Origin: Lantana camara
Taxonomy: Eukaryota > Streptophyta > Magnoliopsida > Lamiales > Verbenaceae
DNA: 64,000 nucleotides
Assembly: GCA_037501455.1 (NCBI GenBank)
Contig: CM074855.1
Coordinates: forward strand, 28,237,501-28,301,500
Reading direction: 5' to 3'
The notes under the pieces are model-generated. The model was not told where the DNA came from and did no database searches. It saw nothing but the letters and a program-made list of their open reading frames with translations. Shown in pieces: positions 33,806-62,460 of the stretch. The translations under genes and the position numbers were made by a program. The stretch's first letter is position 1. Every line of letters begins with the position of its first letter.

Positions 33806-36561
33806 TGTAACGCCCCGCTTTTCCATTTATGCATTATATGATATTATATGGATTTCACAACATTAGATGCATTATATTTCCATGAACTTTTATGAAATTA
33901 ATTGTTAATGTGTCTAATTGGATTTATGTGAATTAATTGACTATTTGGTTATATGATCATATGATTTAATTCCATTTCATTTCATTTCATTGTATTTTCT
34001 AATATATGCATTATTTTATGCATTCATGCAAGAGACATGCAATTATATATATATGCATAATTTTTCTAAATAATACACTCACACATGCACTATATATGTA
34101 TATATTAATAGAGCACTAAAGATTTATATACATATAATATGCATAATATCTAACTTTATACATATATGATATATATCTATAATTATATTACATTACATAC
34201 ATTGTATACAATATAACATATATGAAAGACACACACGCAAACACAAAGTAAATCTCTAACACACACACACACTCCATCTCGTTTTAAACACCATAGAAGA
34301 GGAAGGAAGATTTCATCTCATTTGCAAGCTTGATCTTGAGGAAATTTGCATACTTTGGAAGCATCATCCCCATATTATTCCTTCATCCTTTCTTTCTTTC
34401 ATTTCAAGGTAAAATGAGGAATTACATGAATCTCTTGAATCTTATATGAGTAGGGTTTGATGATTATGCGATTCTTTCTTGTTTATCTTTGGTTAGAAGC
34501 ATGTTTAGGGCTTTTATATTTCAAGACTTGCATGAAACCATGAGCTTATATGAAAGTTGGAAATCATGAAATTATATGGGTTTTGAATGATGAACTCTTG
34601 ATGATTGATGCATAGTTAATGGTTTGTTTGATGCCAAATTGGTGTATATGAGTTATATGCATGTTATATGTTAGTTTTGAGTTGTTTCTTTCCTTAGTTT
34701 GGTGTTGGGAAGGTTTGGGAGCCAATTCCCGTGCATAACCCCTGTTTTTCGCCTAGGTCTCTTCCAAATGGGCGTTTGGTCCTTTAGTTATATTCCCAAA
34801 CGCCGGTTTATAAAGATATTGCCTCACCCGAGGACCCTCAAATGCCCGTTTTTGCTTTCAGTGCATTTTGCAAATGCCCGTTTACCCCTCAAACGAGCTC
34901 CAATTAACCTGAATTTTGAACCCACGGAAACCTATTGAAGTCTAAAAAATTATCCAAGTGGAATCACCTCATTATCCTTTCTATATTGTGAGTTATAATC
35001 CATTCTTCTTGGTGTCATCACTTTACCGACAATCTGCGTTCATTCAACCTTGGATCTACGCCATTTTCACCTCGTTTTGAACCATGATTCGTGCCATATA
35101 TCCTTGGAAAGGTCTATGTGTCTAGTTTCATATCCAACAAAAAAAACTAATTCCAACTTCTATAACTCAAGATATTCCAGTTTTCCTACATCGTGTACAT
35201 TTTCGAAAACTGTCAGCTTTTACCCAACTTTGCCAAAACCTTTCATATTGTATTCCTTTCACTTCCTTGGCTCCCGTATGTGACTTATATGAGTAAATGC
35301 TTGGTTAATTGATAATTTTGCTCATATTTGACATTCCTTAATTGTTATTTCATGACATATTGATTATGACTGTGCCGTGCGCCTTAAATGGTTCATACGA
35401 GTCGTGTCTCACAAACACTTGTCCTTGTTGCACATAACTTCTTTCTATTGACAAGGAGCAGGCTCCATAGTTGTATACTTGTTATTTTATCGTCATAGGT
35501 GAGGTTTAATTATAAATATATAGGACCCATACGACCCCATGTGACATTTTAAGCCAAAATGTATATACATATATCTATAGTTTTCCAAACCTTATGAATT
35601 TCAACGGATTTCCTGGACTCAATGAACTTGCCGTGATTGATCGTGTTTTGGCCAGTACTATTGATTGTTCACTGTGGGTCCGAGGGTAGGGTATTGAGCC
35701 AACCGGGAAAGCAAGGGCTGACGGGTAGTCTTACACTATCCTCACCATTTTGGGATGCCCCCTGAATCCACTAGGAGGTTTGGTGGCGGAAGGAGTCTCG
35801 TGCGTGGGAGTCATATTCCTAACATATGTCATTATTGGATGGTGGGGCCTTGCAATCCCACCATCAACCGTAGGAAAAAGGGTTCGTAAAACTGCTAATT
35901 GTGCATTGTAACAACTTGCATGATCACCATTGAATTGAAACCTAAATATTGATTATTCACAATCGGAGTAAAGGTTGGAGATTGCCCTCACTCGCCGGGC
36001 CACGGATTGAATTGATAATGATTGAATTGTTAAATTGAATAATTGTAGTCTCGGGAGAGAATTTACTTAATTACTTGAACTTATATTGTTTCCTTTTTAT
36101 AAAACCTTACCCGAGATTATGACTTGCATGTTATTTGCGCTAATATTTATTTAAACCCCTTACTCAGTCTTTCATAGACTGGCACCACACATTTTCAGGT
36201 TTGCAGGGTGCGTACTAGGCGGGATTGAGCCAGGTCTTTATTTTTGGGTCTAGCACGGTTCATGTACCTTGTTTTGCATATCTTTTACTTATGAATTACC
36301 TTTCCTTTGGTATTTTGGGGAGATTGTATATATGTAAATGATGGAAATGAATATGTTAATGAAGTGAATGTAAATTATGCTTCCGTTTTATTGTTTAGGC
36401 ATGTTGGTAAATATTTGAGGGTTAGTCCCGCCTAGCTAGAGAGTTGTTTTTTTATTTATCTCCCGTTCGCTATAGGCTTGAGTCATGTATGGGTGTCTGT
36501 TCCATATGTGGATTGAACTATAGTGCGGGGGATGTGGCTACCTGGCGTTCCGGGTGCTACA
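33806..36561 (+). repeat. 5' LTR of Tekay A
   Basis: TGTAACGCCCCG to GTGCTACA, 2756 bp. It has a potential 5' splice site (CAAG before GTAAAA, GT at 34409) and a palindrome array at 34764-34885. Confidence 0.9.
34764..34885. promoter_or_regulatory. Palindrome array in LTR A (5' copy), four units
   Basis: Sixteen-base palindromes start at 34764, 34796, 34838 and 34870 (spacing 32, 42, 32). The first is CCAAATGGGCGTTTGG. The consensus core is A(C/T)G-CC-CGT with AA/TT arms. The 3' LTR repeats them at 39290-39411, where the last unit is the perfect GTAAACGCCCGTTTAC. Function unknown. Confidence 0.75.
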
Positions 36562-36854
36562 TCCTAAGGTAGTATCAGAGCCCGGTTACAAAATCGCGGT
36601 TCTACGGTCATGTCATGCCAAGTCTAGGTCGTACGGCTTAGGAACTATTTGATAATTTGTGCATTGCATTGATTCTTGCTACTAATTGTTGATTGATTGA
36701 CCTCATATTACTTGATTTTTATGTGATCAATGTTTTTTAATTTAACTTTGTTGCATTAATTATTGCATTTTGCATCCATATGTTTTTAAATGCTAATTAT
36801 GTGTCATTTGCAACCACTAATCCAACGTGCATACTTAGTGTTTCAATTTTAGAA

Positions 36855-38015: not shown

Positions 38016-38330
38016 CCATGCATATCACGTGCATCACGGATCTTATTGTTGTTGTATTTAATTTCTTATTAGTTACAAATTTGTTAGTTTATGAATGGTA
38101 ATTGATGTGATTAACATGATTATAATTGTTCTTTATGTGATAACTATGTAAATGTTTGTATAAGTGTCCTCTTGAATTGTTATCCCGTAGCTTGTTTGAG
38201 AGACGGGGTTCTCTCATTGCTTGTGGAGAGACGGGGCTCTCTCATTATTTACTAATTTTAAAACTCGGCAGTGGACCTCGGGACCAGGTCCTTTTAACGG
38301 GGCCGGGGGGGGGGGGGGGAGGGGGGAGAT
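38016..38330 (+). other. Tekay A 3' internal remnant and polypurine tract
   Basis: About 290 bp of non-coding DNA, with two related phrases (GAGACGGGGTTCTCTCATT and GAGACGGGGCTCTCTCATT at 38200-38242). A run of about 17 G and the tract GAGGGGGGAGAT follow, directly before the 3' LTR. It serves as the plus-strand primer in this family. Confidence 0.7.
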
Positions 38331-41091
38331 TGTAACGCTCCGGTTTCCCATTTATGCATTATATGATATTATATGGATTTCACGACATTAGATGCATTAT
38401 ATTTCCATGAATTTTTATGAAATTAATTGTTAATGTGTCTAATTGGATTTATGTGAATTAATTGACTATTTGGTTATATGATCATATGATTTAATTCCAT
38501 TTCATTTCATTTCATTCTATTTTCAAACATATGCATTATTTTATGCATTCATGCAAGAGACATGCAATTATATATATATATGTATAATTTTTCTACACTA
38601 GTACACTCACACATGCATTATATATGTATATATTAATAGAGCACTGCAGATTTATATACATATAATATGCATAATATCTAATTTTATACATATATGATAT
38701 ATATCTATAATTATATTACATTACATACATTGCATACAATATAACATATATGCAAGACACACACACAAACACATAGTAAATCTCTAACACACACACACTC
38801 CATCTCGTTTTAAACACCATAGAAGAGGAAGGAAGATTTCATCTCATTTGCAAGCTTGATCTTGAGGAAATTTGCATACTTTGGAAGCATCATCACCATA
38901 TTATTCCTTCATCCTTTCTTTCTTTCATTTCAAGGTAAAATGAGGAATTACATGAATCTCTTGAATCTTATATGAGTAGGGTTTGATGATTATGCGATTC
39001 TTTCTTGTTTATCTTTGGTTAGAAGCATGTTTAGGGCTTTTATATTTCAAGACTTGCATGAAACCATGAGCTTATATGAAAGTTGGAAATCATGAAATTA
39101 TATGGGTTTTGAATGATGAACTCTTGATGATTGATGCATAGTTAATGGTTTGTTTGATGCCAAATTGGTGTATATGAGTTATATGCATGTTATATGTTAG
39201 TTTTGAGTTGTTTCTTTCCTTAGTTTGGTGTTGGGAAGGTTTGGGAGCCAATTCCCGTGCATAACCCCTGTTTTTCGCCTAGGTCTCTTCCAAATGGGCG
39301 TTTGGTCCTTTAGTTATATTCCCAAACGCCCGTTTATAAAGATATTGCCTCACCCGAGGACCCTCAAATGCCCGTTTTTGCTTTCAGTGCATTTTGTAAA
39401 CGCCCGTTTACCTCTCAAACGAGCTCCAATTAACCTGAATTTTGAACCCACGGAAATCTATTGAAGTCTAGAACATTATCCAAGTGGAATCACCTCATTA
39501 TCCTTTCTATATTGTGAGTTATAATCCATTCTTTTTGGTGTCGCCACTTTACCGATAATCTGCCTTCATTCAACTTCGGGTCTATGCCATTTTCACCTCG
39601 TTTTGAACCATGATTCGTGCCATATATCCTTGGAAAGGTCCATGTGTTTAGTTTCATATTCAACAAACAAAACCTAATTCCAACTTCTATAACTGAAGAT
39701 ATTCCAGTTTTCCTACATCGTGTACATTTCCAAAAACTGTTAGCTTTTACCTAACTTTGCCAAAACCTTTAATATTGCATTCCTTTCACTTTCTTGGATC
39801 CCGTATGTGACTTATATGAGTATATGCTTGGTTAATTGATAATTATTCTCCTCTTTGACATTCCTTAATTGTTATTGTATGACATATTGGCTATGACTGT
39901 GTCGTGCGTCTTAAATGGTTTATACGAGTTGTATCTCACAAAAACTTGTCCTTGTTGCACAGATCTTCTTCTCGTTGACAAGGAGCAGGCTCCATAGTTG
40001 TATCCTTGTTATTTTGTCGTCACAGGTGAGGTTTAATTCTAAATATATAGGACCCATACGACCCTATATGACGTTTTAAGCCAAAACACACATATATATA
40101 TATATATAGTTTTCCAAACCTTATGAATTTCAACGGATTTCCTGGATTGAATGAACTTGTCGTGATTGATCGTGTTTTGGCGAGTACTATTGATTGTTCA
40201 CTGTGGGTCCGAGGGTAGTGTATTAAGCCAACCGGGAAAGCAAGGGCTGATGGGTAACTCTTGCATTATCATCACCATTTTGGGATACTCCCTGAATCCA
40301 CCAGGAGGTTTGGTGGAAGAAGGAGTCCTGTGCGTGGGAGTCATGTTCCTAACGTACGTCATTATTGGGTGGTGAGGCAATGCAATCCCACCATCAACCG
40401 GAGGAAAAAGGGTTCGTAAAACTGCTAATTGTGCACTGTAACAACTTGCTTGATCACCATTGAATTGAAACCTAAATATTGATTATTCACTATCGGAGTA
40501 AAGGTTGGAGATTACCTCACTTGCCGGGCCACGGATTGAATTGATAATGATTGAATTGTTAAATTGAATAATTGTAGTCTCGGGTGAGAATTTACTTAAT
40601 TACTTGAACTTATATTGTTTCCTTTTTATAAAACCTTACCCGAGATTATGACTTGCATGCTATTTGTGCTAATATTTATTTAAACCCCTCACTCAGTCTC
40701 TCATAGATTGACACCTCACATTTTCAGGTTTGCAGGGTGCGTGCTAGGCGGGATTGAGTCAGGTCTTTATTTTTGGGTCTAGCACGGTTCATTTACCTTG
40801 TTTTTCATATCTTTTACTTATGAATTACCTTTCCTTTGCTATTTCGGGGAGATCGTATATATGTAAATGATGGAAATGCATATGTTAATTAAGTGAATGT
40901 AAATTATGCTTCCGTTTTATTGTTTAGGCATGTTGGTAAATATTTGAGGGTTAGTCCCGCCTAACTAGTGAATTGTTTTTTTTATTTGTCTCCCGTTCGC
41001 TATAGGCTTAATTCATGTATGGGTGTCCGTTCCATATGTGGATTGAACTATAGTGCGGGGAATGTGGCTACCTAGCGTTCCGGGTGCTACA
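38331..41091 (+). repeat. 3' LTR of Tekay A
   Basis: TGTAACGCTCCG to GTGCTACA, 2761 bp. Divergence from the 5' LTR is uneven: several percent in the first 450 bp and the last 1.7 kb, but about one difference in the block 38831-39325. Confidence 0.9.
39290..39411. promoter_or_regulatory. Palindrome array in LTR A (3' copy), four units
   Basis: Units at 39290, 39322, 39364 and 39396, the same 32/42/32 spacing as in the 5' LTR. Units 2 and 4 are closer to the perfect palindrome than their 5' LTR counterparts. Confidence 0.75.
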
Positions 41092-41096
41092 ACACG

Positions 41097-45988: not shown

Positions 45989-45994
45989 GTAAAT

Positions 45995-46384: not shown

Positions 46385-49355
46385 TGTAATGCCCCGCATT
46401 CTCGTACGAACAGGTAAGTGGTATGTGCGTTATTTCATTCCCTATTTGATTTAGATTCCATTTATACAATTGAATTGTTATAACATGAAATAGTTTCTCA
46501 AAATTTTGTTTGATGTTTTATTTGAATTGTAAATATATGAACGGACTCGTGTGATTGCGAATTTCATGAATTTGATGTTAAATGAATGAGATTATGTGAT
46601 TTTTGTATATTGAGGAGTTAATTGCAACTTATTTGAATGTTTTGGACTCAATTGGAAATTGAGTTTGGGCTTAATTGCCACTTTTTGAAAGTTTAGGGAC
46701 CTATTTAAATAATAGGCAACCCGGAACGGTTTTCTTAATATCTTGGGCCCCGAACCTCGAAATTGAGATCCATCTTCGACATTGAACTTGTTTCGACAAT
46801 TCCTAACCAGTGAACCTAACCTCACACCTTTTCAATCTCGTTTGAATTTCCGACGGAGCATATTTCAATTCACATGACCTTTTTGATAATACTTGACCCT
46901 TCAAATCCTTTTTGGATTCGGTTCGAACCGTATTTGACCCATTTCTTCATCCTTAAGAGCTGAATTTTCCTTCTTCTTGCTTCCATAATGATCGATAATC
47001 ATCCTTTCAAGAAGACAAGAGAAGCTCCAATAAACCCCATTCTTGATCAACCAAACCTTGAGTTCAAGATCAACCCTCATCCATACTTCTTCCAAGGTAA
47101 AGATAGATATGGAATCTCCTCATCTTCATCTATATTTTCATCCATAAGAAGCATGATTTATGATAAAAATTCATGAGGGTTAGTGATGAGCATGAATAGT
47201 TAAATAGAAGCTTGAATCTTATTAGGTGATAATCCATGGTTTAAATCGAGTTTTATTATAAGAAGTATGATCATTTCAGCTTCTCCATCATTTATATAAG
47301 CAAGGATTTAGTGTAAAGTGATTAAGCCTTTAATTGCCATTAATGGAGCTCTAAGCTCCTTGCATGAAACATGAAGAGAGAAATGGATGTTTTCAATGAT
47401 TTTGAATGAATCCTTATGTGGGAGATTGAAATATATGTTTTTCCTAATTTATTGTGATGATTTCATGTTAATTTTCAAGGTGGGATATTGGTTGTTGTTG
47501 CTGGAGCTCGAACAGGGGGGTGTGCATGTTTGTGTGTTCTTGGCGTGAGGAAGAAGAAGAGAAAATAGGGGATGATGTCTGGGCTTGTTAACGCCCGTTA
47601 ACCATTTTTGTACTAAGAAAGGTAACGCCCGTTACCTTCCCTCCTTCCTGAAGTTTTAAACGCCTGACCTCGTTAATGCCCATTACCTTTTTTGCCTACA
47701 AAAACCTTAACTCGCTTTAACCACCTTGGAGGAAGCTACTGCCGCTGTTAACCCCCATTAACACTTTTGGTCTGGAAATTGTTAACCCCCATTAACCCTG
47801 CAGAATGAGGTGATCAAGGGATATTTGTATAATTTAATTTGTTTCGTTTACGTAAAACGTTAACTTTGTTACGTGCTTAATGGGAGATGCACTTCATTAA
47901 GAATATGATACGTGTGCGAATATGAGTTGTTATTATGTATACGTGCATTAAGATTAAATGCTATCAATGTGATATTCAAAAGGAATTATATGTTTTAATG
48001 ATTATGAATGAATACGGTTCCGCCGTATATTGGATAAATGACTTGTTTATGTGTTTATATGAACGTAATTGCACTCATGATCATCTTCATCACATGTTAT
48101 TATCTCATATGCCTTCCATACCACGTTTATTGCATTACCAAGCGTCAAATATAGTCATTTGAGTCTCACACCAATTTTATTGCACAGATCTTGGTCAGGT
48201 TGGAGACGAGGCCGGACAGTGAGGTCCTTGTTTCATTCTTGTGGTAAATCAGGTGGGTTTTTCTTATATTAGTTAAACATATGACCCGATATACCCAATG
48301 TGCAGGTTTTCGGCCAATGTATATCTATAATTATATTGAATCTTTCAAGAGTCAATGTTTTCAAACGTAAAGCCCTTATTTTATGAGCCCTACCAAATGT
48401 TTTGGCAAAAATGGATTGAGCACAATGAATGGAGGCCCTGGGACTCAGTGTACGTGGCTATCCGGGAAAGCTCGGGCTGACGGTGATCCCCGTACACTAG
48501 TTCTACCAAACTACAGTGATACCGGACTTCACTAGAAGATTAGTGAAGGATGGGAACCGGGCTTTTGGGGATTCATGTACCCCACTAGCCATAATGAATG
48601 GGTGGTCGGGCCTTGTAAACCCATCTACTACCCGGAGGAAAAAGGAGTAAATGAATGATTGAACAAATGATCAATGAATGAGCACAAAAGATGATATGTG
48701 TGTGATCACAAATGATTAAAATGATTAAGGATACATAAGGTACAGGTTGGAGACTTAGCCACTCGCCAGCTTACGTATAATCTAAAGAATGAAATTTGAA
48801 TGTTATAATTTCATTCGTTGTATTTCTTGATTTATCCCACTTGGGAAATGTTTTAACACCTCGTTCGGAATTATAACTCGCATGCACTTGTTTAAATTCT
48901 GGATTATTATTATATTATGCCTGTTTTATACCCATCAGTCTGTCTAAGACTGAACCCAGAGTTGTTCAGTATCTCTTTTGCAGGTTGAGATTTGCTAGGA
49001 GAGAATACAAGTCTAAGAGAGAGTCTTGCATTAGTGTCTAGCGTTTCTTTATGTATACACTCATGCCTTCATCCCTTTTGGATATTATATGTATTATGGA
49101 GCGTATATGAATGATATGAGGCCATGTGAGGGCTGTAAAGTGATGTATCATGTAAATATAATATTTTATGCTTCTGCTTTTAATGCTTGCTCTGTTGAAT
49201 TATGCTTGAATGAATGGATAAGGGTTAGTCCTGCCTAGCTTAGTGTGTGTGTTGTGTCCCCATTCGCCATGATTTGGCACGTGTATGGAAATCCATTTCA
49301 TCTACGGGTCGGGTCTTGGTGCGGGGGATGTGACGTCTTGCGCTCGGGCGTTACA
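46385..49355 (+). repeat. 5' LTR of element C, 2971 bp
   Basis: TGTAATGCCCCG to GGGCGTTACA. Carries a donor-like CCAAG before GTAAAG (GT at 47097), a palindrome array (47587-47796), and the block TCTAC...GTGCGGGGGATGTGACG near its end, shared with the other Tekay LTRs. Confidence 0.85.
47587..47796. promoter_or_regulatory. Palindrome array in LTR C, six units
   Basis: Sixteen-mers start at 47587 (GTTAACGCCCGTTAAC, perfect), 47621 (GGTAACGCCCGTTACC, perfect), 47672, 47706 (degenerate), 47747 and 47781 (both GTTAACCCCCATTAAC). Spacing is 34, 51, 34, 41, 34, so three pairs each 34 bp apart. A weak extra copy may lie at 47656. Confidence 0.8.
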
Positions 49356-49692: not shown

Positions 49693-51221
49693 TGCAAAGG
49701 ATTTTACTACAGTTAAAAACCAATCGTGCAAGTGTACACTAACACACGCGTAGCACAATAGGATCGAATCCACAGGGAAGGGAAATCAATCACTACTCTC
49801 TATTCCTCTCTAATCTAAAGACTTAACTGAAGCAAGGGTTATTTCTATTAATCTACTAATGCAGAAATTAACAAGTAACTAGAATAAAATTGCAATTAAC
49901 AACTTAAACACGCGAATTAAATTCAGTAAACTAAAAAGGCAGGGGAAAAGCTTTGAATCATACAATCAAGAGCTGACGTGATACTTGTTTGACAAGTGTA
50001 ATCCTACAACCTAGTCACTTATATTTGAATTACATTCTCACGAGGTGAACCAAGTGCTTAATTAGTGTTCAATGTTGCTCTCGCAATCACCAATAGTTAA
50101 TTAAACCATAGAAACAAGACTAGTGTAATTCAGTATTCTAGCGGCTCGGCATGGAATAAGATTACTGTTGTATAAGCTAGGACCAAATCTCTTTGTACCC
50201 TACAACTTACAAGTATTGAAAACAATCCAAATCACCATAAATCTCTTAATTTATAGGCAATTCTGAGACATGCTAAGGTTGCCCAAACCATTGCAATTCA
50301 AATTACGTCCGCTTTCAAAACTAAGAATCGTACAAGTCATTCAAGCATTACATCAAACATATATCATGCATTCATCATCACTCCTCTAGCCTTAGAGAAT
50401 TAGCTACTCATAGTAAAGGCAAAACTCAGAAAACTAAACGAAATTGCATTAAAATGAATCATAGTCATCAAATCCAAACAAAGTCTAGAAAATAAACTCA
50501 TAAACATTCTAATAATTCCAGAAAATTAAATCTCTCACACGAAAACTGAATTTAGGCAGAATTAGTTTGAATTATAAAGCAGTAAAACTAGAAAAAGGAA
50601 TTAGTCTCAATTGATTTGTCTGAATTCTCTGAGAAATCTCTTGAACTCTCCCACAACAGCCTTCTTCTCTCTCTTCCCCTGAACTCGTCTGTCTCTCCTC
50701 TCTCTCAAAAAGTCCTCAAAACGCGCATATATACTAACCCTAAAATCTCTCGCCGACAGGGGTAACGGGTGTTACCTGTCCCCATGCAATTCTTGTTAAC
50801 GCCCGTTAACCGGATGAATCGTGTCAGCGCTTATATAAGTAGTAACGGGGGTTAATGCTTTTCTTCAGTGAAAAGGTAATGGGCGTTACCACTCCTTCTC
50901 CAGAATTCATCTCCTCCTGTGGCTTTAAACGGGCATTACTGAATCTGTGCTGCCAGGGAGTAACGGGCGTTAATCCTTTGAATCGTCCCGTGCAGTGCTC
51001 CTGTGTTCGTTAACGGGAGTTACACACAGTGTGCTATTGTATGGTAACGGGGGTTACCACCATTCTTTCCTCAAAACATGTGAAATCGTTATGCTTTGCC
51101 GTTTCGTAACTCCAATTCTAAAATTACCTAAAATGGGCCAATTTAAGCACATAAACACATCAAACAACACAATTTGTCATCAAATTAACGCTAAAAAATC
51201 ATGTAATTTCAACATACAACA
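49693..51221 (-). repeat. Athila 3' LTR, 1529 bp
   Basis: On the minus strand it runs from TGTTGTATGTTG to ATCCTTTGCA. Minus-strand TATA-like sequences are at about 50725-50735 (GTATATATG) and 50830 (TTATATAAG). The 3' side carries the CCCTGTGGATTCGATCC phrase common to Athila/Tat LTR ends. Confidence 0.8.
50761..51058. promoter_or_regulatory. Palindrome array in Athila LTR, eight units in four pairs
   Basis: Sixteen-mers start at 50761, 50795, 50841, 50875, 50925, 50959, 51009 and 51043. Spacing is 34, 46, 34, 50, 34, 50, 34. Examples are GGTAACGGGTGTTACC, GTTAACGCCCGTTAAC and GGTAACGGGGGTTACC. The array is in U3, upstream (in the minus sense) of the TATA-like sequence at 50730, so a promoter or enhancer role is possible. 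Confidence 0.85.
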
Positions 51222-52398
51222 AAATCCCCCACACTTGAATATTGCTCGTCCTCGAGTAATACGAAAATTAAGAAAACACATCCTCATCAAACCCTCTCCT
51301 CTTAGCAATCATCAAACCTTCACCTAAACAAGTCTAGCTAATCAAATCAAATACTCATAAATATGAAATCTTCAAAATTTAGTATGAAAAGTAAACCCTT
51401 GTGCAGTGTGTGAGTCAAACGATACAATGTACAAAAATTAGAATGACCACTTCACAATTTCCTCCTAAGCTCTAATCATCAACTTCGGAACACACTCTTC
51501 GCACCTATCTCCACTAATGGAATTAAATCAAACCTTTGAATCGGTAGGTCTTTCGAGCTTGTAATGTAGGCTTAGGGTAAGGTTATGGAAATTTGGATCA
51601 AGTGACTACTCACCAAGCTTACATCATTTAATCTAATCAAAACACGAACACTTCTATTCACCATTACCACGAAAAAAATATTATCCCAACTCTTCAATTG
51701 AATCCCACACTTTCAAATTCACACTTCGCATAATCTTATTTTTCTCTTCTTTGCTCTTTCTCTTTTCATATCTTTTCTTTTTCTCATTATTTTTCTTTCG
51801 TTTGCTCTTTTTCTTTTCATATCTTTTCTTTTTGCACACTAGCTCCTCACTCTCAATCACAAGAATAACTACAGAAGGGGTCTAAGAATAGATAATTACC
51901 ATACAAATTCAAATGAGCAAGCCTTGGTGAACAAAATTATCAAGGTAGGTATTTCTATGTTGTGCTTTGGCTTATAATATGGCTACAAAAATCTTTGCAC
52001 AACAATTAGGCTCAGCGGGGTCAATAAGATTACGTTATTTAGTGAAAAACGGCTAAATAGAAAGGCTTAAAATCCTCAAACAACAAATGCCTACTTCACT
52101 TCCTTAGTCTTTCATTAACTCAAAATTTCGCCTCAATAGGACTAAAGTGCATCCTAATCAAATCCTAGACTCATTCGAAAATTATCAACTCATCTCTCTA
52201 AGTTAAGTATATTATTTCGTTCAAAAGTGCTCAAAATATAAGCGCATACTAACACTCTAAACCATCAAATCGCATGCAACTTTCCTCAATTCAAAAAGCC
52301 CAACTTATTCTAGCAAAAGCTCAACAATCAAACTACGAAGAAAAAGTTCAAAATGAGAAAAAATTTTCAAAAATTTTCAAAATTACTCGAATTTTAGC
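51222..52398 (-). other. Athila 3' non-coding internal region
   Basis: No coding segment. Begins (plus sense) CCCCCACACTTGAATATTGC. A very similar phrase, CCCCCACACTTAAACTTTGC, recurs at 62531 on the other side of Tekay B. Confidence 0.6.
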
Positions 52399-52403
52399 AA
52401 ATT

Positions 52404-55044
52404 TGTAACGCCCCAATTTCCGGAAGTTCAGGTAAGCACTCCACGAGCGGGTCTTCGGGAGTTGGGAGGTTAAAATTACCTGTTTGTTCATTTAATTACA
52501 AGTTTCATCATATTACTTACCATATGTTCCCATACATTTATATGAAATATCATTTATATGAATTATATGAAATAAGTGAAATAAGTGCCATATTTGTATT
52601 ATATGATCCTTAATTGTCCCTTATGTGAAATTGTGTAATGAGTGTATACCATGACTTGAAGTTAATTGCATCAATTGTTAGAAATTATACTTATGTGCAT
52701 CAATTTAAATAAGCAAGGGACTTTTATGCAAATAAGGGTGAATCACATATTTCCATACAAGACTTAGGATATATCATGATTTCCACATTATTCCATTCAT
52801 TTCTTCTATATTCCAAGAACAAAAATCCCACACACACACACCTAGTGGATTACGGTTTTTACACCAAGAAGAGAAGGAGATTTCATTTCAATTTCAAGCT
52901 AGATTCTTGAAGGATTCTTGAAGATAGAAGCATCATTAACCTCATATCATCATCTCATCCACCATCTCTTTGATTCAAGGTAGAACTTGATGGTTTTGTA
53001 AAATTCTTGAATATGTGATCAAGCATGGACTTATGAATTTGTTGATGAATTCTTGCATGATTAGAGTAGAAAGTATGATACTAATCTTTTGGAGTAAGGA
53101 TTGCATGAAAATATGGGGTTTCATGGAGATTAGAAGCATGATCAAATATAGGGGTTTCAAGCTTGATCTTTGCCATTTTAATGTTTATTTCTTGGTTAGT
53201 TTGATGAATACTTGAAGTATGATGTTTATTGGATGAGTTTCAACATTTGTTATGGTTGGAATTTGGAGATATTGTGGTTTGGAGTTGGTTTGTGCATGGA
53301 AACCCCTGTTTTTACCCTGTTTTTCTGTCACGCACAGGTGACACGGGCGTGTCACCTTTGCTTTGTTTTGGGTGACACGGGGGTGCAGGTTGGCTGGGGC
53401 GGTTTTCTGTACCGTGACACGGGGGTGTCACGGCTTAGTGTAATATGGTGACACGGGCGTGTCACTTTCCTGCATTTTGCCCAACTTCGGACGAACGCCA
53501 TTTTCACCTCGGTTTGAATTAGAAAGCGTGCCATATAGCGTTGGAAAGGTCTATGTGTCTACTTTCATTCCCAACAAGCAAAAGTCAATTCCCACTTCTA
53601 GAATTTAAGATATTCCAGTTTTCCCACAACATGTACATTTCCCAAAATTGTCAAGTGTTCCTAAACTTCACCAAAATCTTTCCTATTGCATTTCTTTTAC
53701 TTTCTTGGTTTCCATATGTGAATTATATGACTTTTATGCCCTATTTGATCATTATTATCTCAAATTGCTAAATTGAACATGTCATGATCATTATTGATTG
53801 AAATTGTATAAGTAACATTATTGGAACATGCCGTTCGTCTTCGTTGGTTCATAGGGGTAGAGTCTTATGTACACTTGTCCCTTTGTTACACAGATCACGG
53901 TCCGGGAGACGAGGAACACGCTCCATAAGGTGTATCCTTTCTTCTTGTGTTGGTAAAGGTGAGGTTATTTCTAATTATATTGAACCCTACAACCCTATGT
54001 GGCTTTGGACCAAAACAAATAATTATATCTATAGTTTTCTGAAAAAATTGAATTATTCCTTTATTGTTTGATTGGTATTGTACCGAGTTATGGAATTGAT
54101 ATTGAATTGGATTGATTGATTGTTTTGGCGAGTAAAACATGTTCACAGAGGGCCCGAGGGTAGTGTATTGAGCCAACCGGGAAGGCAAGGGCCGACGGGC
54201 AACTCTTGCACTATCCTCACCAAATTGCGGGATGACCCCTGAATCCACTAGGAGATTAGTGGAGGAAGGAGTTCCGGGTATAGGGAATCATGAACCCTAT
54301 ACTCAATGAGATTGGATGGCGGGGCCTTGCAATCCCCCATCACCCGGAGGAAGAAGGATGGATTGATTGAAACTGTCTATTTGTGCACTGAATTGATTGC
54401 CTGATCACTTAATTGATAAAATGGAATTAATGTACACTGTCGGAGATTGGTTGGAGATTTGCCCTCACTCGCCGGGCCACTGATTATTGAATTGTATTGA
54501 AATAACTGAATTGAAAATGGAATGATTGTAACCTCGGGCGAGCTTTGTTTATTTATTAAACTAATATTGTTTATGAAAATCTTACCCGAGTTTACAATTT
54601 GCATGGTATTTGCGCTTTTAAATTATAACCCTCACTCAGTCTTTCATAGGCTGACACCTCACAACTTTCAGGTCATGAAGATCGCGTGCTAGGCGGGATT
54701 TGAGTCCATTTTACGCTTTTGGGAGTCTAGCGTTGGTCTTTTGTATTTTGGTACATGTTATGAGCACTTGGAACTTTTGGTGAACTTGACTAATATCTAT
54801 ATATCATGACCTATGTTTGATAACTGACGGATGGTGATGTAATTATGTAATGGAGTAATGTATAACTTTATGCTTCCGGTTTTATTTTGGATTGTTGTAT
54901 TATATGAGGGTATCCCGCCTAGCTAGGGTTATGTTTTATTGTCTCCCGTTCGCTATAGGCTTGATTCATGTATGGGTGCCCGTTCCATATGTGGATTGAA
55001 CTATAGTGCGGGGGATGTAGTGCCCTTGCGTTAAGGGTGTTACA
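52404..55044 (+). repeat. 5' LTR of Tekay B
   Basis: TGTAACGCCCCAATTTCC to AAGGGTGTTACA. Donor-like CAAG before GTAGAA (GT at 52980) and palindrome array at 53336-53466. Confidence 0.95.
53336..53466. promoter_or_regulatory. Palindrome array in LTR B (5' copy), four units
   Basis: Cores ACGGGCGT or ACGGGGGT start at 53343, 53377, 53419 and 53453, spacing 34, 42, 34. Unit 1 is a perfect 22-bp palindrome with 10-base arms (GGTGACACG and its inverse around GG, plus one further pair). Unit 2 has a degraded right arm, unit 3 a GGGG centre, unit 4 nine-base arms. Confidence 0.85.
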
Positions 55045-55052
55045 TCCTAAGG

Positions 55053-55064: not shown

Positions 55065-55287
55065 CCGGTTGCAAAACCGAGGTTCTAGTGTCGTGTCATG
55101 TCGAGTCTAAGTCGTACGGCATAGGACTACTTGATTAATTGCGAGAATTGCATAATGATTGAGTTTACTTGGATTTGTCTGAATTACTTGAATTATTTGA
55201 ATTATGTGATTTATGTGAACTATGAGTTTATTCCACTCATCTGCACTTGTTAATCGAACATGCATGTACAGTGTTTTGAATTTCAGG

Positions 55288-58200
55288 ATGCCACGTGGGA
55301 GGCCTCGTAGAGAGCATTCTCCGGGACACAGGCATCACCATCATGAGCATGTTCCTCCACCTCCACCCCCTCAAGCACAACCACAGGATTTCCTAAATTC
55401 TATGGTTCAACTAATAGATCAGAGACTGCGGGATTATGTGCCTCCTGCACCACCGGCTCCTCCAGTAGCACCACCGGCCCCGATTTCAGCTATATTAAGG
55501 GAATTTCAAAATCAACACCCGCCCAGATTCTTTAAAGGGAATGATATGCAAGCTGAGCAGTGGCTTAAGGAAGTAGAAAGAATTTGGGCTCTTATTCCTT
55601 GTGATTCAAGAGAGAAGGCCCGGTGTACTCTTACTTTAATCCAGGGAGAAGCTTATTCGTGGTGGGAAAGCACCAAGATCGTTCTTGACGCGGCCGGAGA
55701 AGAGGTTACTTGGGAAGTGTTAGTGCGGGAATTCAAGAACAAGTTCATTCCACCCTCTTCACGCACCCGAAGGCTCAAAGAGTTTACAGAGCTTAAACAA
55801 GGAGGGAGATCCGTGTCCGAGTACATAGCAGAATTTGAAAGGTTATCCAAGTATGCTCCCAATATTACCGGCGATGATTTCCATAAAGCTATGCAGTTTG
55901 TTCAAGGACTAAGGCCGGACATTCAAGCGGCGATCGAAGCGGTTAATACTAGCACTTGGAAAAAGGCTACTCAAAAGGCCTTAAAGGTGGAAGATTCAGT
56001 CAATGCACGAAGGTCTTCTTACCGGTCAGGACAAGGCTCAGGATCGGGATCGAGAGTGGGATATAATCCGGGCAAAAGGCCAATTATTCAGGGGACAGCT
56101 CCTCCACAATCTAAGGGTCCAATGAAGAAGTTTAAACAACAAGGGCCGACTCAGAAAATTTCTCAGCCTTCTAGTGTACCACCGCCTCCCGAGAAACCAA
56201 AATGTACCTTCTGTGGACAGCCTACTCATCACTATGATAATTGCAGAAGGCGTCTCGGGTTGTGCCTCATTTGTGGGGATGCCGATCATCGAGTGGATAC
56301 ATGTCCGGATCGCCGGGATCAGCCTGCCGGGGGTCAGAGGCCGATGATTAGAGCCCGAGCCTATGCTTTGGAAGGAGAGGAAGCGGATCCTGATATAGAC
56401 CCTGCAGCCGTGGTGGAAGGTACTATTTGCATCCATGGCACGAACATACATACTTTATTTGATCCGGGAGCTACCCACTCCTTTATTTCCCGTGCTATTT
56501 CTGTGAATTTGCCTTTATGTGTTACTTTATCTTCTGCTTATTATCATGTTAGTACTCCTTTCGGTGATAGTATAGAAACTAACCGGGTTTTTCGAGCGGT
56601 GCCGGTGAGTATTGAGGGTCGAGTTTTCTCTACGGATTTTATTGAATTGCCAATGTCACGCTATGGATCTATATTGGGGATGGATTGGTTGTTTGAGCAT
56701 AATGCCACCGTGGATTGTCGAGCCAAGAGAGTCCGGTTGGGTTCAGATGTTATTACTGGTTGGAGTTCGAAATCGGTACCTCTATTATCTTTTGCAGAAG
56801 CTCAGAAATTGGTTCGTGACGGGGCTACGGGATTCATAGCTTATATACTTAATCGACCCAAGGATCAGGTAAAATTGGAAGAAACGGAGGTTGTTAAGGG
56901 ATTTCCCGAAGTGTTTCCGGAAAAATTGGATTCGTTGCCACCAGAGAGAGAAATTGAATTTGTGATCGACTTATATCCGAATGCCGAGCCGTATTCCAAG
57001 ACTCCATATCGGATGGCTCCGGCGGAATTGAAAGAATTGAAAGTCCAACTTGATGCTTTATTGGAAATTGGGTATATAAGACCGAGTTCGTCACCGTGGG
57101 GAGCGCCGGTATTGTTTGTAAAGAAAAAGGATGGTACTTTGAGGATGTGCATTGATTATCGGGAATTGAATCGGATGACAATTAAGAATAAATATCCTCT
57201 TCCCCATATCGAGGAGTTGTTTGATATACTCCAAGGATCCAAAGTATATTCGAAACTTGATTTGAGACAAGGTTATTATCAGTTACGGATCCGAGCCGAA
57301 GATATTCCAAAAACGGGTTTTAATACAAGATATGGGCATTATGAGTTCATGGTTATGCCGTTCGGTTTGACAAATGCTCCCGCCGCCTTTATGGATATGA
57401 TGCATAGGATTTTCCGGCCGTTCCTTGATAAGTTTGTGGTTATCTTTATTGACGATATTTTGGTTTTCTCCAAGTCGGCCGAAGAGCATGCCAGGCATCT
57501 TGAACTTGTGTTGAGAACTTTAAAGGAACATCAATTATTTGCCAAGTTCAGTAAGTGTGAGTTTTGGATCGATCGGGTATCGTTCTTGGGGCATATAATT
57601 TCGGGAAACGGGTTGGAAGTTGATCCTTCCAAGATCGAGGCCGTCTTGAAGTGGGAGAGACCTAAGAATGCCTCCGAGATTAAGAGTTTCTTGGGATTGG
57701 CGGGGTATTATAGGAGGTTTGTTCAAGATTTTTCTAAAATTGCCGCTCCTTTAACTCGGTTGACTAAGAAAGATGTTAAGTATGATTGGGATGACAAGTG
57801 TGAGACAAACTTCAATGAGTTAAAGAAGAGATTGGTGTCAGCTCCGGTTTTAGCTCTTCCAGACGGGTTAGAAGGATATGCAGTTTACACGGATGCATCT
57901 AAAGAAGGTTTGGGATGTGTTTTAACTCAGAAGGGCAAGGTTATCGCTTATGCTTCCCGAAAGTTAAAGGATTATGAAAAGAATTATCCGACACATGATC
58001 TAGAGCTTGCAGCGGTGATATTCGCACTTGGAAAATGGAGACATTACTTATATGGAGTATCTTTTGAAATTTTCACGGATCATAAAAGTCTCCAATATCT
58101 ATTCACCCAGAAAGATCTTAACATGAGACAACGAAGATGGATGGAACGGTTAGAAGATTATGACTGTGTAATCAAGTATCATCCCGGGAAGGCTAATATA

Positions 58201-59784
58201 GTAGCCGATGCTTTGAGCCGGAAAGTTGGAATTTCAAGTTTGGAAGTTGATGAAAGTAGCCACATTGAGCCTATTGTGATAAAAGGTCGGGTGTTCAACA
58301 TCACCATTCAACCGGAATTAAAATTTAGACTGTTTGAGGCTCAAGGAAGGGATCCGGAAGTTCAGAAATTAGTTACTAAGGCAAGAGAAGATCCGGAAAG
58401 TCCATTCGGGTTTGATGAAGCTGGTTTTCTTCGCTTCAAGAACCGACTAGTGGTACCCGATGAATTAAAACGAGTATTGTTAGAAGAGGCCCATAAATCA
58501 GCCTATTCGGTGCATCCAGGAGGGAACAAGATGTATAAAGACTTGAAACAATTTTATTGGTGGCGTGGACTCAAGAAGGATGTGGCTGAGTTTGTAAGAT
58601 GTTGTTTGACGTGTCAACAAGTTAAAGCAGAACATCAAAAGCCCGGAGGTCTTCTACAGCCATTGCCTATCCCTGAGTGGAAGTGGGAACAGGTAACAAT
58701 GGATTTTATAACCGGGTTACCAAAGGTGAAAGGAGGGTATGACGGTATTTGGGTGATTGTGGACCGATTGACTAAGTCTGCTCATTTCTTACCGGTCCGT
58801 ATGTCCTTCAAGATTAAGAAATTGGCCGAGATTTATAATAGAGAGATTGTTCGCCTTCATGGAATTCCGGTGAGCATTGTTTCGGATAGAGATCCCCGCT
58901 TTACTTCTAAGTTGTGGCGAGAATTACAAGATCTTTTGGGAACGAAACTTCAGTTTAGCACGGCTTTTCATCCTCAGACTGATGGCCAATCTGAAAGGGT
59001 AATACGATATTTGGAAGATTTACTACGGTCGTGTGCTTTGGACTTCTCGAATTCGTGGTGTGACCAACTCCCCTTAATTGAATTTGCCTACAATAATAGT
59101 TATCAGTCCACAATTAGCATGGCTCCGTATGAATTACTTTATGGACGAAAATGTCGGTCCCCGTTATATTTTGATCTAGAGGAATGGAAGTGGACAAAAC
59201 AAGAGGGAGTAAAGAAGGAAGGAAAATTGGAGAAACCTTCTAAAGCCGTGGAAGCTATGATTGAAAAGGTTCAGTTAATACAACAACGGATGAAAGCTGC
59301 ACAAGATAGACAGAAAAGCTACGCCGATATCCGTAGAAGGGATCTTAAGTTTGAAGTTGGAGATCGGGTTTTCTTGAAAGTATCCCCAAGAAAGGGGTTT
59401 TCTCGTATTGGAAAGGGAGGAAAGCTTAACCCTCGCTATTTGGGTCCATTCGAGATTCTTGAGAGAATTGGGGAAGTGGCTTACAGATTGGACCTACCTC
59501 CTAATCTTACCGGGATTCATAATGTATTCCATGTCTCTCAGCTCAGAAAATATTATCCAGATGAAACAGAAATTCTCCCCGTTGAAGAAGTTGAGTTAGA
59601 ACCAAATCTCTCTTTTGTTCAACAGCCGGTTAAGGTGTTGGATAAAAAGTATCAAGAATTAAGAAATCGACGGATTCCTATGGTCAAGGTGTTATGGAGA
59701 AGTGATAAATCCGAAGAGATGACTTGGGAACCAGAAGAAAAGATGAAAAGGTTCCACCCTGAGTTGTTCAACTCCGATCAGTGA
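55288..59784 (+). CDS. Tekay B gag-pol polyprotein (1498 residues)
   Basis: Start chosen at ATG 55288 (M-P-R-G-R-P), because this start is shared with element A and follows a TTTCAG acceptor-like site. An upstream in-frame ATG exists at 55222. Domains, counted from 55288: basic N-terminus and proline-rich linker; gag core 81-235; two CCHC knuckles, C306-C319 and C326-C339; protease with D392-P-G-A; reverse transcriptase with D658, D722 and D723; RNase H with D869, E906, D931, D974; integrase zinc site H1069, H1076, C1106, C1109 and catalytic D1139, D1200, E1236; chromodomain about 1449-1493. This order and the chromodomain identify a Tekay-type chromovirus. No stop or frameshift. The protease has DPG where DSG or DTG is usual. 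Gag forms the particle and binds RNA, and pol makes and inserts the DNA copy. Confidence 0.97.
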
Positions 59785-59805
59785 ATCTGGGGACCAGATT
59801 CTTCT

Positions 59806-59819
59806 AAGGGGGGGAGAGT
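59806..59819 (+). other. Polypurine tract of Tekay B
   Basis: AAGGGGGGGAGAG-type purine run directly before the 3' LTR; primer for plus-strand DNA. Confidence 0.85.
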
Positions 59820-62460
59820 TGTAACGCCCCAATTTCCGGAAGTTCAGGTAAGCACTCCACGAGCGGGTCTTCGGGAGTTGGGAGGTTAAAATTACCTGTT
59901 TGTTCATTTAATTACAAGTTTCATCATATTACTTACCATATGTTCCCATACATTTATATGAAATATCATTTATATGAATTATATGAAATAAGTGAAATAA
60001 GTGCCATATTTGTATTATATGATCCTTAATTGTCCCTTATGTGAAATTGTGTAATGAGTGTATACCATGACTTGAAGTTAATTGCATCAATGGTTAGAAA
60101 TTATACTTATGTGCATCAATTTAAATAAGCAAGGGACTTTTATGCAAATAAGGGTGAATCACATATTTCCATACAAGACTTAGGATATATCATGATTTCC
60201 ACATTATTCCATTCATTTCTTCTATATTCCAAGAACAAAAATCCCACACACACACACCTAGTGGATTACGGTTTTTACACCAAGAAGAGAAGGAGATTTC
60301 ATTTCAATTTCAAGCTAGATTCTTGAAGGATTCTTGAAGATAGAAGCATCATTAACCTCATATCATCATCTCATCCACCATCTCTTTGATTCAAGGTAGA
60401 ACTTGATGGTTTTGTAAAATTCTTGAATATGTGATCAAGCATGGACTTATGAATTTGTTGATGAATTCTTGCATGATTAGAGTAGAAAGTATGATACTAA
60501 TCTTTTGGAGTAAGGATTGCATGAAAATATGGGGTTTCATGGAGATTAGAAGCATGATCAAATATAGGGGTTTCAAGCTTGATCTTTGCCATTTTAATGT
60601 TTATTTCTTGGTTAGTTTGATGAATACTTGAAGTATGATGTTTATTGGATGAGTTTCAACATTTGTTATGGTTGGAATTTGGAGATATTGTGGTTTGGAG
60701 TTGGTTTGTGCATGGAAACCCCTGTTTTTACCCTGTTTTTCTGTCACGCACAGGTGACACGGGCGTGTCACCTTTGCTTTGTTTTGGGTGACACGGGGGT
60801 GCAGGTTGGCTGGGGCGGTTTTCTGTACCGTGACACGGGGGTGTCACGGCTTAGTGTAATATGGTGACACGGGCGTGTCACTTTCCTGCATTTTGCCCAA
60901 CTTCGGACGAACGCCATTTTCACCTCGGTTTGAATTAGAAAGCGTGCCATATAGCGTTGGAAAGGTCTATGTGTCTACTTTCATTCCCAACAAGCAAAAG
61001 TCAATTCCCACTTCTAGAATTTAAGATATTCCAGTTTTCCCACAACATGTACATTTCCCAAAATTGTCAAGTGTTCCTAAACTTCACCAAAATCTTTCCT
61101 ATTGCATTTCTTTTACTTTCTTGGTTTCCATATGTGAATTATATGACTTTTATGCCCTATTTGATCATTATTATCTCAAATTGCTAAATTGAACATGTCA
61201 TGATCATTATTGATTGAAATTGTATAAGTAACATTATTGGAACATGCCGTTCGTCTTCGTTGGTTCATAGGGGTAGAGTCTTATGTACACTTGTCCCTTT
61301 GTTACACAGATCACGGTCCGGGAGACGAGGAACACGCTCCATAAGGTGTATCCTTTCTTCTTGTGTTGGTAAAGGTGAGGTTATTTCTAATTATATTGAA
61401 CCCTACAACCCTATGTGGCTTTGGACCAAAACAAATAATTATATCTATAGTTTTCTGAAAAAATTGAATTATTCCTTTATTGTTTGATTGGTATTGTACC
61501 GAGTTATGGAATTGATATTGAATTGGATTGATTGATTGTTTTGGCGAGTAAAACATGTTCACAGAGGGCCCGAGGGTAGTGTATTGAGCCAACCGGGAAG
61601 GCAAGGGCCGACGGGCAACTCTTGCACTATCCTCACCAAATTGCGGGATGACCCCTGAATCCACTAGGAGATTAGTGGAGGAAGGAGTTCCGGGTATAGG
61701 GAATCATGAACCCTATACTCAATGAGATTGGATGGCGGGGCCTTGCAATCCCCCATCACCCGGAGGAAGAAGGATGGATTGATTGAAACTGTCTATTTGT
61801 GCACTGAATTGATTGCCTGATCACTTAATTGATAAAATGGAATTAATGTACACTGTCGGAGATTGGTTGGAGATTTGCCCTCACTCGCCGGGCCACTGAT
61901 TATTGAATTGTATTGAAATAACTGAATTGAAAATGGAATGATTGTAACCTCGGGCGAGCTTTGTTTATTTATTAAACTAATATTGTTTATGAAAATCTTA
62001 CCCGAGTTTACAATTTGCATGGTATTTGCGCTTTTAAATTATAACCCTCACTCAGTCTTTCATAGGCTGACACCTCACAACTTTCAGGTCATGAAGATCG
62101 CGTGCTAGGCGGGATTTGAGTCCATTTTACGCTTTTGGGAGTCTAGCGTTGGTCTTTTGTATTTTGGTACATGTTATGAGCACTTGGAACTTTTGGTGAA
62201 CTTGACTAATATCTATATATCATGACCTATGTTTGATAACTGACGGATGGTGATGTAATTATGTAATGGAGTAATGTATAACTTTATGCTTCCGGTTTTA
62301 TTTTGGATTGTTGTATTATATGAGGGTATCCCGCCTAGCTAGGGTTATGTTTTATTGTCTCCCGTTCGCTATAGGCTTGATTCATGTATGGGTGCCCGTT
62401 CCATATGTGGATTGAACTATAGTGCGGGGGATGTAGTGCCCTTGCGTTAAGGGTGTTACA
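59820..62460 (+). repeat. 3' LTR of Tekay B
   Basis: Same length as the 5' LTR, offset 7416 bp. All short open frames of the 5' LTR recur identically here. Confidence 0.95.
60752..60882. promoter_or_regulatory. Palindrome array in LTR B (3' copy)
   Basis: Identical to the array at 53336-53466, with the same 34/42/34 spacing. Confidence 0.85.

Follow-up and report, generated by a model that had tools for sequence, protein, structure and literature searches.

Paired palindromes with class-specific spacing in LTRs of chromovirus and Athila-type retrotransposons of Lantana camara

Why should the LTRs of several retrotransposons carry short palindromes in pairs, at distances that hardly vary? The question arises from a 64,000-nucleotide stretch of the Lantana camara genome (assembly GCA_037501455.1, contig CM074855.1, forward-strand positions 28,237,501 to 28,301,500; hereafter the window). 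Here a first-pass annotation described palindrome arrays in four LTR families and proposed selection on their geometry, through either a protein that binds two palindromes at once or an RNA/DNA secondary structure (Table 1). These represent about two lineages, because the LTRs of A, B and C are of chromovirus type and related to one another: those of A and B have common stretches that are 73–82% identical, and the C LTR is a distant relative. Element B is a Ty3/gypsy chromovirus with an open gag-pol (chromodomain match E 8e-5, 22.8 bits, below the cut-off of 25.1), and element A is a putative non-autonomous chromovirus relative with gag alone in its internal part. Apart from gag-pol in the internal region of B, and gag in A, neither holds an ORF of at least 150 aa. 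The Athila element lies on the minus strand inside element C, and element B lies inside the Athila element, with the TSD AAATT. The match to ATHILA ORF-1 is slightly below its Pfam cut-off, and the protein search gave no homologue.

Table 1. Positions of retrotransposon features and palindrome arrays in the window
Feature	Position	Strand	Details
Element A 5' LTR	33806..36561	+	pairs with 38331-41091, 94.6% identical
Possible relict fifth dyad upstream of A array	34736..34747, also 39262-39273	+	two mismatches to A class
A array, 5' LTR	34762..34887	+	cores 34768, 34800, 34842, 34874 (32-42-32); AAAC class
Element A gag	37014-38012		Pfam match
Element A 3' LTR	38331..41091	+	pair partner of 33806-36561
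A array, 3' LTR	39288..39413	+	cores 39294, 39326, 39368, 39400 (32-42-32)
Element C 5' LTR	46400..49355	+	start not located; end GGGCGTTACA, then Met-type PBS TGGTATCAGAGC
C array	47585..47798	+	cores 47591, 47625, 47676, 47710, 47751, 47785 (34-51-34-41-34); TAAC class
Athila LTR (3' LTR of its element)	49700..51225 (ends approximate)	-	PPT-like AAGTGTGGGGG at minus-strand start
TATA-like box GTATATA	50728..50734	-	starts 31 bp after last palindrome core of Athila array
Athila array	50759..51060	-	cores 51047, 51013, 50963, 50929, 50879, 50845, 50799, 50765; TAAC class
Element B 5' LTR	52404..55044	+	1 difference from 3' LTR over 2641 bp
Possible relict A-class dyad upstream of B array	53300..53311, also 60716-60727	+	one mismatch to A class
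B array, 5' LTR	53337..53466	+	cores 53343, 53377, 53419, 53453 (34-42-34); GAC class, GG centre
Element B gag-pol ORF, with integrase and chromodomain	55219..59781	+	
Element B 3' LTR	59820..62460	+	LTR pair
B array, 3' LTR	60753..60882	+	identical to 5' LTR array
ATHILA ORF-1 Pfam match	63149-63994		PF03078, E 4.8e-4, 19.5 bits (cut-off 20.2)

The four, four, six and eight palindromes reported for A, B, C and Athila proved correct together with all their spacings, and for A and B this holds in either LTR; in element sense the Athila spacings read 34-50-34-50-34-46-34. When the window was scanned throughout with a consensus, these sites came up again, along with scattered weaker matches in other places. 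The core had been given as ACG-NN-CGT, but the exact ACGNNCGT occurs in 10 of the 30 palindromes; many of the other cores carry a C-to-T or G-to-A change at a core CpG, and the third core base is variable. The core has four invariant columns (A, C, C and T within AAC-NCCC-GTT) among 22 non-duplicate copies oriented to CC, and its centre, described as mostly CC or GG, is CC in 21 of these. Both the CC and the GG orientation are found. The exact ACGNNCGT is present 17 times in the window against 3.3 expected, a number reached in none of 100 shuffles. Each of the four palindromes in the array of the A 5' LTR has one core change (0/4 cores exact), and the A arrays of the 5' and 3' LTR differ from each other in sequence; in element B, with one LTR difference in 2641 bp, the array is the same in both LTRs.

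Spacing within the pairs is 34 in nine of 11 and 32 in both A pairs, with seven between-pair gaps of 41–51; the long gaps vary freely, whereas the short ones do not. Under random placement, equal odd spacings have P values of 0.019 (A), 0.018 (B), 0.0004 (C) and 0.00001 (Athila), and permutation of the 18 window spacings gives 1 in 200,000. The possible relict dyads of A and B lie in a block common to both, and three of 400 shuffles score as high.

The palindrome phenomenon is much larger than the window. Exact ACGSSCGT pairs 32–36 bp apart number 16,033 in the plant's own 1.27-Gb genome, against 115 in a reversed-pattern control; the corresponding counts are 4,948 against 76 at 34–35 bp, and 16,792 against 713 over the 31 spacings from 37 to 67. 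Among the first 50 listed pairs of the 32–36 scan, 27 are at 32, 22 at 34, one at 33 and none at 35–36, and the 50 listed pairs of the 34–35 scan, where some places represent both LTRs of a single element, are all at 34 and none at 35. At 18 loci chosen for a long gap, 68 other spacings between neighbours were measured, of which 40 equal 32 or 34 and three equal 31 or 33. Odd spacings occur as well (four pairs at 31 in a random genome sample); the genome samples all come from contig C1 and comprise related copies, with redundancy removed in part. Many of the examined pairs sit in retrotransposon LTRs. The proposed enrichment at 32–34 bp has therefore withstood this check in the own genome, with the reversed pattern as control in place of shuffled LTRs.

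What did not survive is a constant 34-bp pairing; spacing is instead class-specific, at 32 or 34. Arm class, centre and spacing co-occur. A spacing of 34 goes with TAAC arms and with GAC arms that have CC or GG centres, and one of 32 goes with GGA arms, with AAAC arms and with GAC arms around a GGCC centre. Across 36 pairs with unrelated spacers, 30 are at 32 or 34, and the other six (five GGA, one TAAC) are one base off, at 31 or 33. By class, 34 is taken by 13 of 14 TAAC pairs and all six GAC pairs with other centres, and 32 by both GAC-GGCC pairs and nine of 14 GGA pairs. Selection on geometry is strongly supported, by the genome-wide excess at 32–36, by the 49 of the first 50 listed pairs that are at 32 or 34, and by a spacing that follows class despite unrelated spacers. 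Could the spacing simply be inherited, from old tandem duplications without function, with arm symmetry supplied by template switching at quasi-palindromes in reverse transcription? Arrays are inherited within families, and the three pair spacers of C agree in 8/16 letters. However, most spacers within and between the window arrays are unrelated in sequence at identical spacing (those of C and Athila, both TAAC-34, agree in only 2–8/16 letters), the 36 pairs repeat this pattern, and the long gaps are free where the short ones are fixed, all of which makes such descent very improbable.

We interpret the arrays as likely promoter-proximal LTR modules, in which each palindrome is a predicted dimer site and the dimers would stand as a fixed pair; we assign this reading a probability of roughly 0.58. 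Each 16–22 bp palindrome would be occupied by a single protein dimer, and neighbouring dimers of a pair would be fixed 32 or 34 bp apart along one double helix. The reader would be a dimeric DNA-binding protein, in the simplest case a host transcription factor family in which every class has its own member or group, and it would raise transcription of the element and render the module enhancer-like. Pair geometry would be kept by selection, and class would change when an LTR acquires or evolves another array. Of the two mechanisms offered at the outset, a protein on duplex DNA is the predicted and favoured one, because spacing is base-precise while spacer sequence is free; the presence of both CC and GG orientations is as duplex recognition expects.

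The other mechanism, a single-strand structure, would have the palindromes fold as hairpins (arm stem, NCCC or GGCC loop) in element RNA or single-stranded cDNA, with a role in packaging, silencing or template switching. Fold energies of the arrays are below those of shuffles on the sense strand (z of -3.7, -3.8, -2.6 and -2.2 for A, B, C and Athila) and on the antisense strand (-2.8, -6.8, -1.7 and -1.1), and an excess of small RNAs is described in maize Sireviruses for regions whose predicted structure is strong because of palindromic motif clusters, in the part of that work available (PMC10760457). The predicted folds, however, mix 1-2, 2-4, 3-7 and 1-8 pairings, with no plan or architecture shared by the four arrays; GCCC and GGGC loops are both in use, and a 32 or 34 spacing with free spacer is more readily a property of the duplex. 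We consider hairpins unlikely.

The outer arm letters are variable, yet the two arms of a palindrome remain symmetric there, with no match to the partner palindrome: at arm position 6 the left arm of the same palindrome is matched in 32 of 60 cases and the partner in four. The compensatory arm changes expected by the first-pass annotation are therefore real within each palindrome, but absent between the two of a pair. Such covariation at arm positions 4–7, with the letters free, suits hairpins; the arm mismatches do not, since 99 of 246 are G-T or A-C, with strand not resolved, and show no clear G-U excess. Symmetry at positions 4–6 is also all-or-none in excess of what independent positions predict (of 93, 18 have 0/3 and 23 have 3/3, where 9.2 and 14.0 are expected), as block copying by template switching would produce. 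Symmetry at sequence-free outer positions is not predicted by independent half-site contacts, and a further cause is needed.

The promoter-proximal part of the preferred reading can be followed in Athila-type LTRs. A TATA-like box starts 31–33 bp past the last core in seven of the ten TAAC arrays examined, all seven with Athila-type flanks; beside the window copy, the six other LTRs with this flank have the box at +32 or +33. Chance occurrence of such a box is 2.7% per 28-nt window. In the remaining three arrays it is at +97, at +101 or absent. The LTR start was usable at 11 chromovirus loci; here the array is situated 824–1222 bp inside the LTR, with no strict TATA box in the 150 bp after it. 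Proximity to a promoter is therefore shown for Athila-type LTRs only. In the C LTR, a TATA-like site precedes the array by about 300 bp.

TAAC-34 is common to C, which is chromovirus-like, and Athila, and homologous places in related LTRs are occupied by different palindrome classes: in summed alignments, A (AAAC-32) and B (GAC-34) LTRs align over 1.1 kb at 73%, C (TAAC-34) and L273 (GAC-32) over 1.2 kb at 77%, and A and L264 (GAC-32) over 1.9 kb at 77%. On the preferred reading, LTRs would swap the enhancer-like array module. A more far-reaching and tentative possibility is a swappable lock-and-key code, where each LTR would bear one palindrome class (arms, centre, 32 or 34 spacing) read by a matching paired-dimer protein; unrelated lineages would share keys, close relatives would differ, and switching would let elements follow or escape the reader. 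On this view the reader family would have diversified, and key switching would extend over upwards of 10,000 sites of a single genome. Class switching may alternatively reflect an arms race in which the sites recruit a sequence-specific demethylation or anti-silencing factor, by analogy with VANC. The VANC-target arrays of VANDAL elements are likewise dense, lie in non-coding DNA of the element and consist of short motifs that change from one family to the next, according to the part of the source available (PMC5735166); here too class changes family-wide and related LTRs differ, and the CpG observed/expected ratio of every array exceeds that of the remaining LTR (1.05 against 0.64 in A2, 0.88/0.58 in B, 0.77/0.69 in C and 0.92/0.73 in Athila). 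The VANC reader is, however, element-encoded and its motifs run tandem in one orientation (PMC5735166), whereas the present motifs are palindromes in fixed pairs with mostly unrelated spacers. With no additional protein, and so no candidate element-encoded reader, found in A and B, we regard recruitment of this kind as quite unlikely.

Short repeated sites upstream of an LTR promoter are familiar from Tnt1, Tto1 and ONSEN, where they are boxes for host factors; to our knowledge they are not paired palindromes at two fixed spacings. A literature search by motif letters gave no title recognisably on such arrays among the matches listed. The closest known system is that of the palindromic repeated motifs, or RM boxes, in the LTRs of Ty1/copia Sireviruses (Bousios et al. 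2010, PMC2829016), called Sirevirus-specific among the elements compared in the available part of that paper. Both systems repeat a palindromic motif in the LTR with constant core and variable arms, and the GGCC-centre classes of the own genome (ACGGCCGT) contain CGG-CCG, the core of the RM boxes. The window arrays, in contrast, have CC or GG centres in a core ACG-SS-CGT without CGG-CCG, and their hosts are Ty3/gypsy elements (chromovirus and Athila-type). RM boxes are placed a short way upstream of a TATA box, which applies here to the seven Athila-type LTRs and not to the 11 chromovirus loci. Section 9 of PMC2829016 gives no pair spacing or class-to-spacing rule. A design known from Sirevirus LTR promoters is found in similar form in two Ty3/gypsy lineages, here with a pair spacing that depends on site class. 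If the sites are read by protein, a small number of dimeric factors is predicted from the classes, each of which supplies an exact probe. One could then test by which host proteins thousands of retrotransposons are driven, or restrained, and if the factor changes with the swap of a 110–300 bp module.

The LTR termini offer one more comparison. The A (5' LTR) and B LTRs start TGTAACGCCC, and the C LTR ends in its complement (9/10 letters); these termini resemble the U3 att published for Del/Tekay chromoviruses, TGTAACACCC (PMC4029996), which equals the complement of the U5 end of B. The available text of that paper describes plastic 5' CpG islands in Del/Tekay LTRs, none reported in the eudicot group, and does not mention palindromes, tandem repeats or inverted repeats. 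The A/B terminus also matches dyads of C and Athila in 9/10 letters, a score that 2,000 random TG-starting 10-mers reach in 0.6% and 0.15%, so the half-sites might conceivably be internal integrase-binding sites. This comparison was chosen after the data were seen, however, and Athila, which holds one best match (9/10), has an LTR start that matches its own array in 5/10; we hold the idea to be the least probable of those considered. The B terminus is matched by the B array in eight letters and by the A array in seven, so B changed its arms with the terminus unchanged.

The window contains nested LTR retrotransposons (Table): the related chromovirus-type elements A, B and C, and an Athila-type element that B has entered with a 5-bp duplication, AAATT. 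Each LTR carries an array of palindromes with the core ACG-NN-CGT, which we sort into classes by arm and centre. The numbers of palindromes per LTR and their spacings, as listed in the first-pass annotation, were borne out for every LTR, and a consensus scan of the window recovered the same sites, with weaker matches scattered elsewhere. The same annotation counted four LTR families, which now reduce to about two lineages, given the kinship of the A, B and C LTRs and the lack of any Athila match outside the arrays. Common stretches of the A and B LTRs are 73-82% identical, and short blocks common to both flank the array on either side (shuffles scored as high in 3/400 cases upstream and 0/400 downstream); C matches A and B weakly, and no match was found between Athila and A, B or C outside the arrays, the B junction itself excepted. 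Array class is discordant with this kinship: A carries AAAC arms paired at 32 bp, B carries GAC arms at 34 bp, and both C and Athila carry TAAC arms at 34 bp. Recent tandem duplication of the window's pairs was rejected as most spacers are unrelated; the spacers of C are 8/16 alike, and a duplication may have occurred inside C.

Table. Positions of elements, arrays and other features in the window and in extracted sequences (L-numbers).
Feature	Position	LTR comparison	Remarks
Element A LTRs	33806-36561 and 38331-41091	94.6% identity	interior with gag frame only
Element B LTRs	52404-55044 and 59820-62460	1 difference in 2641 bp	open gag-pol, integrase and chromodomain
Element C LTR	end at 49355		single LTR seen; followed by Met-type primer site
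Athila-type LTR	~49700-51225		minus strand; inserted in C
Chromovirus LTR terminus TGTAACGCCC	33806, 52404, 49346-49355
Open frame with Plant mobile domain	45434-45997		PF10536, E 1.6e-23; upstream of C array
GAGAG array in A	38200-38241		internal region, before 3' LTR
GAGAG arrays at other genome loci	L243:438-549; L264:2280-2365; L279:4220-4310; L282:3494-3580
ATCC-ACCCCCGT-GGAT pairs (genome loci)	L259:1104-1174; L276:5817; L285:5114		32-bp pairs
Short palindromes such as GATTTCGGGGACGAAATC (bacterial-assembly contigs)	L003:5551; L004:6185; L009:2037		downstream of pol-related match

The palindrome pairs are a real feature of this plant and extend genome-wide. In its own genome (1.27 Gb, 378 contigs; the window is C1:28237501-28301500), exact ACGSSCGT cores, to which all these counts are confined, formed 16,033 pairs at spacings of 32-36 bp against 115 for the reversed pattern used as control, 4,948 against 76 at 34-35 bp, and 16,792 against 713 over the 31 spacings of 37-67 bp together. 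Among the first 50 places listed for the 32-36 search, 27 were at 32, 22 at 34 and one at 33, and the first 50 for the 34-35 search were all at 34; some listed places are the two LTRs of the same element. A motif-blind sample of C1 (20 evenly spread 10-kb stretches, 200 kb) held 21 exact cores, and its commonest neighbour spacing was 32 bp (13/38), with 31 bp in four cases and 34 bp in one. At 18 loci chosen for a long gap from the places listed in the 37-67 search, mostly of the GGA class, the other neighbour spacings were 32 or 34 bp in 40/68 cases and 31 or 33 bp in 3/68, a tally that omits gaps above 70 bp, leaves out 10 of the 18 selected gaps and counts the remaining ones in. The first-pass annotation would have given up its claim of selected geometry if such spacings lacked enrichment; in the own genome this test did not refute it (16,033 against 115).

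Spacing goes with palindrome class and not with LTR kinship. Palindromes with TAAC arms, or with GAC arms around a CC/GG centre, pair at 34 bp, and those with GGA arms, AAAC arms, or GAC arms around a GGCC centre pair at 32 bp. In a set of 36 pairs with spacers less than 60% alike (relatives removed at 60% flank/spacer identity; AAAC class absent), 13 of 14 TAAC pairs and 6/6 GAC pairs with other centres fell at 34 bp, 2/2 GAC-GGCC pairs at 32 bp, and the 14 GGA pairs at 32 (nine), 31 (three) and 33 bp (two). Classes differ despite related flanks between A and the genome locus L264 (1.9 kb summed alignment, 77%), C and locus L273 (1.2 kb, 77%), and A and B (1.1 kb, 73%); many shorter flank alignments likewise link LTRs of different class. 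The further class ATCC-ACCCCCGT-GGAT was also seen in pairs.

Arm symmetry was analysed in palindrome sets thinned of relatives at 60% flank/spacer identity, which kept 127/281 in one analysis and 93/208 in another. In the set of 93, complementarity within copies exceeded class-matched shuffles at arm positions 4-7 for TAAC (P 0.033, 0.0008, 0.023 and 0.0028), at positions 4-6 for GAC (P 0.001, 0.0006 and 0.0022) and at position 6 alone for GGA (P 0.0066); no excess was found at position 8 or in the seven AAAC copies. When the members of a pair are unlike, each right arm agrees with the left arm of the same palindrome and not with that of the partner (36 pairs with unrelated spacers). At position 6, own matches outnumber partner matches by 41 to 8 of 72 in 48 pairs and by 32 to 4 of 60 in the 36; position 8 is reversed in the 48 pairs (own 11, partner 30 of 70), a reversal that is gone in the 36 (11 and 10 of 48). 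The single palindrome is therefore the unit, and the pair as one long hairpin is ruled out, since the outer arms match their own palindrome rather than the partner. Compensatory arm changes, which the first-pass annotation had proposed as a test, are thus present in the own genome within each palindrome but not between partners. Centre order in 34-bp pairs was GG-then-CC in 10 and CC-then-GG in one of 19, so that many of these pairs are mirror-symmetric as a whole too.

Arm symmetry that is free of sequence remains beyond what simple half-site contacts explain. It is the main point in support of hairpin formation, in which the palindromes would act as single-strand structure, and it likewise supports an alternative, quasi-palindrome correction by template switching during reverse transcription. 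Sense-strand RNA folds of the arrays are better than shuffles (z -2.2 to -3.8), but the palindromes that pair in the predicted folds differ from array to array, loops occur in either sense, and no common RNA fold was seen; hairpin formation is the less favoured reading. We favour recognition of the duplex rather than of a single strand: two main spacings 2 bases apart, few odd values and a free spacer would suit a protein pair seated on a single rigid duplex. Judged from sequence, the most likely role of the arrays is regulatory, as a module to which dimers would bind in pairs; a reader protein and an effect on transcription are predicted.

Promoter proximity is evident in one lineage only, that of the Athila-type LTRs. 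Seven of the ten TAAC arrays examined have Athila-type flanks (the window and six loci), and in these seven a TATA-like box begins 31-33 bp beyond the final core. The seven LTRs are related and hence not seven independent events, and for the six loci the flank that served to set the Athila type was also the one used to measure the box. Two others have such a box at +97 and +101, and C has none in the region after its array. In 11 chromovirus loci whose LTR start was usable, the distance from there to the array is 824-1222 bp, and no strict TATA box occurs within 150 bp after the array; L245 and L248, whose apparent LTR start resembles a dyad half-site, were excluded from these distances. The chromovirus LTR terminus matches the dyads of C and Athila in 9/10 letters, and the Athila terminus has no such match. 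Upstream of the C array, an open reading frame encodes a Plant mobile domain.

Sirevirus RM boxes are similar in design. They are palindromes of Ty1/copia elements in which the CGG-CCG core is constant and further letters are specific to the element; each element has 8 to 32 of them, ahead of a TATA box (PMC2829016). The RM-box section of that paper mentions no pair spacing. The RM-box CGG-CCG is present in the GGCC-centre classes of this genome and absent from the window's own arrays. The present arrays would work like RM boxes but are not classed as such because their host elements are not Sireviruses. VANC target arrays (PMC5735166) are the nearest case of arrays changing with their reader. 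Searches of open-licence literature yielded no account of either this core or the 32/34 pairing.

Beyond this genome, viral contigs yielded neither TAAC-arm pairs nor relatives of the B protein, and the translated B array as query returned no homologue. Shorter-arm pairs, which were tallied only, occur in viral contigs and look like phage repeats or coding sequence; AACGSSCGTT pairs in IMG/VR contigs (L012-L131) are concentrated at a spacing of 22 bp, with 41 pairs against 11 at 45 bp, the second most frequent spacing, some being composed of 11-bp GTTSAACG-like repeats. Contigs from bacterial assemblies (L001-L006, L009) encode chromovirus reverse transcriptase of a plant-like type, which shares 57-71% identity with B, and are probably contamination; no array was found in these pieces, which contain little LTR. 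Short palindromes were noted in three of them, that of L009 ending ~20 bp before the LTR start. In the own genome, a second array type, GAGAG-ACGGGG-YT-CTCTC, runs in single file at spacings of 28-30 bp; in A, L243, L264 and L282 it is located no more than ~230 bp upstream of an LTR start.
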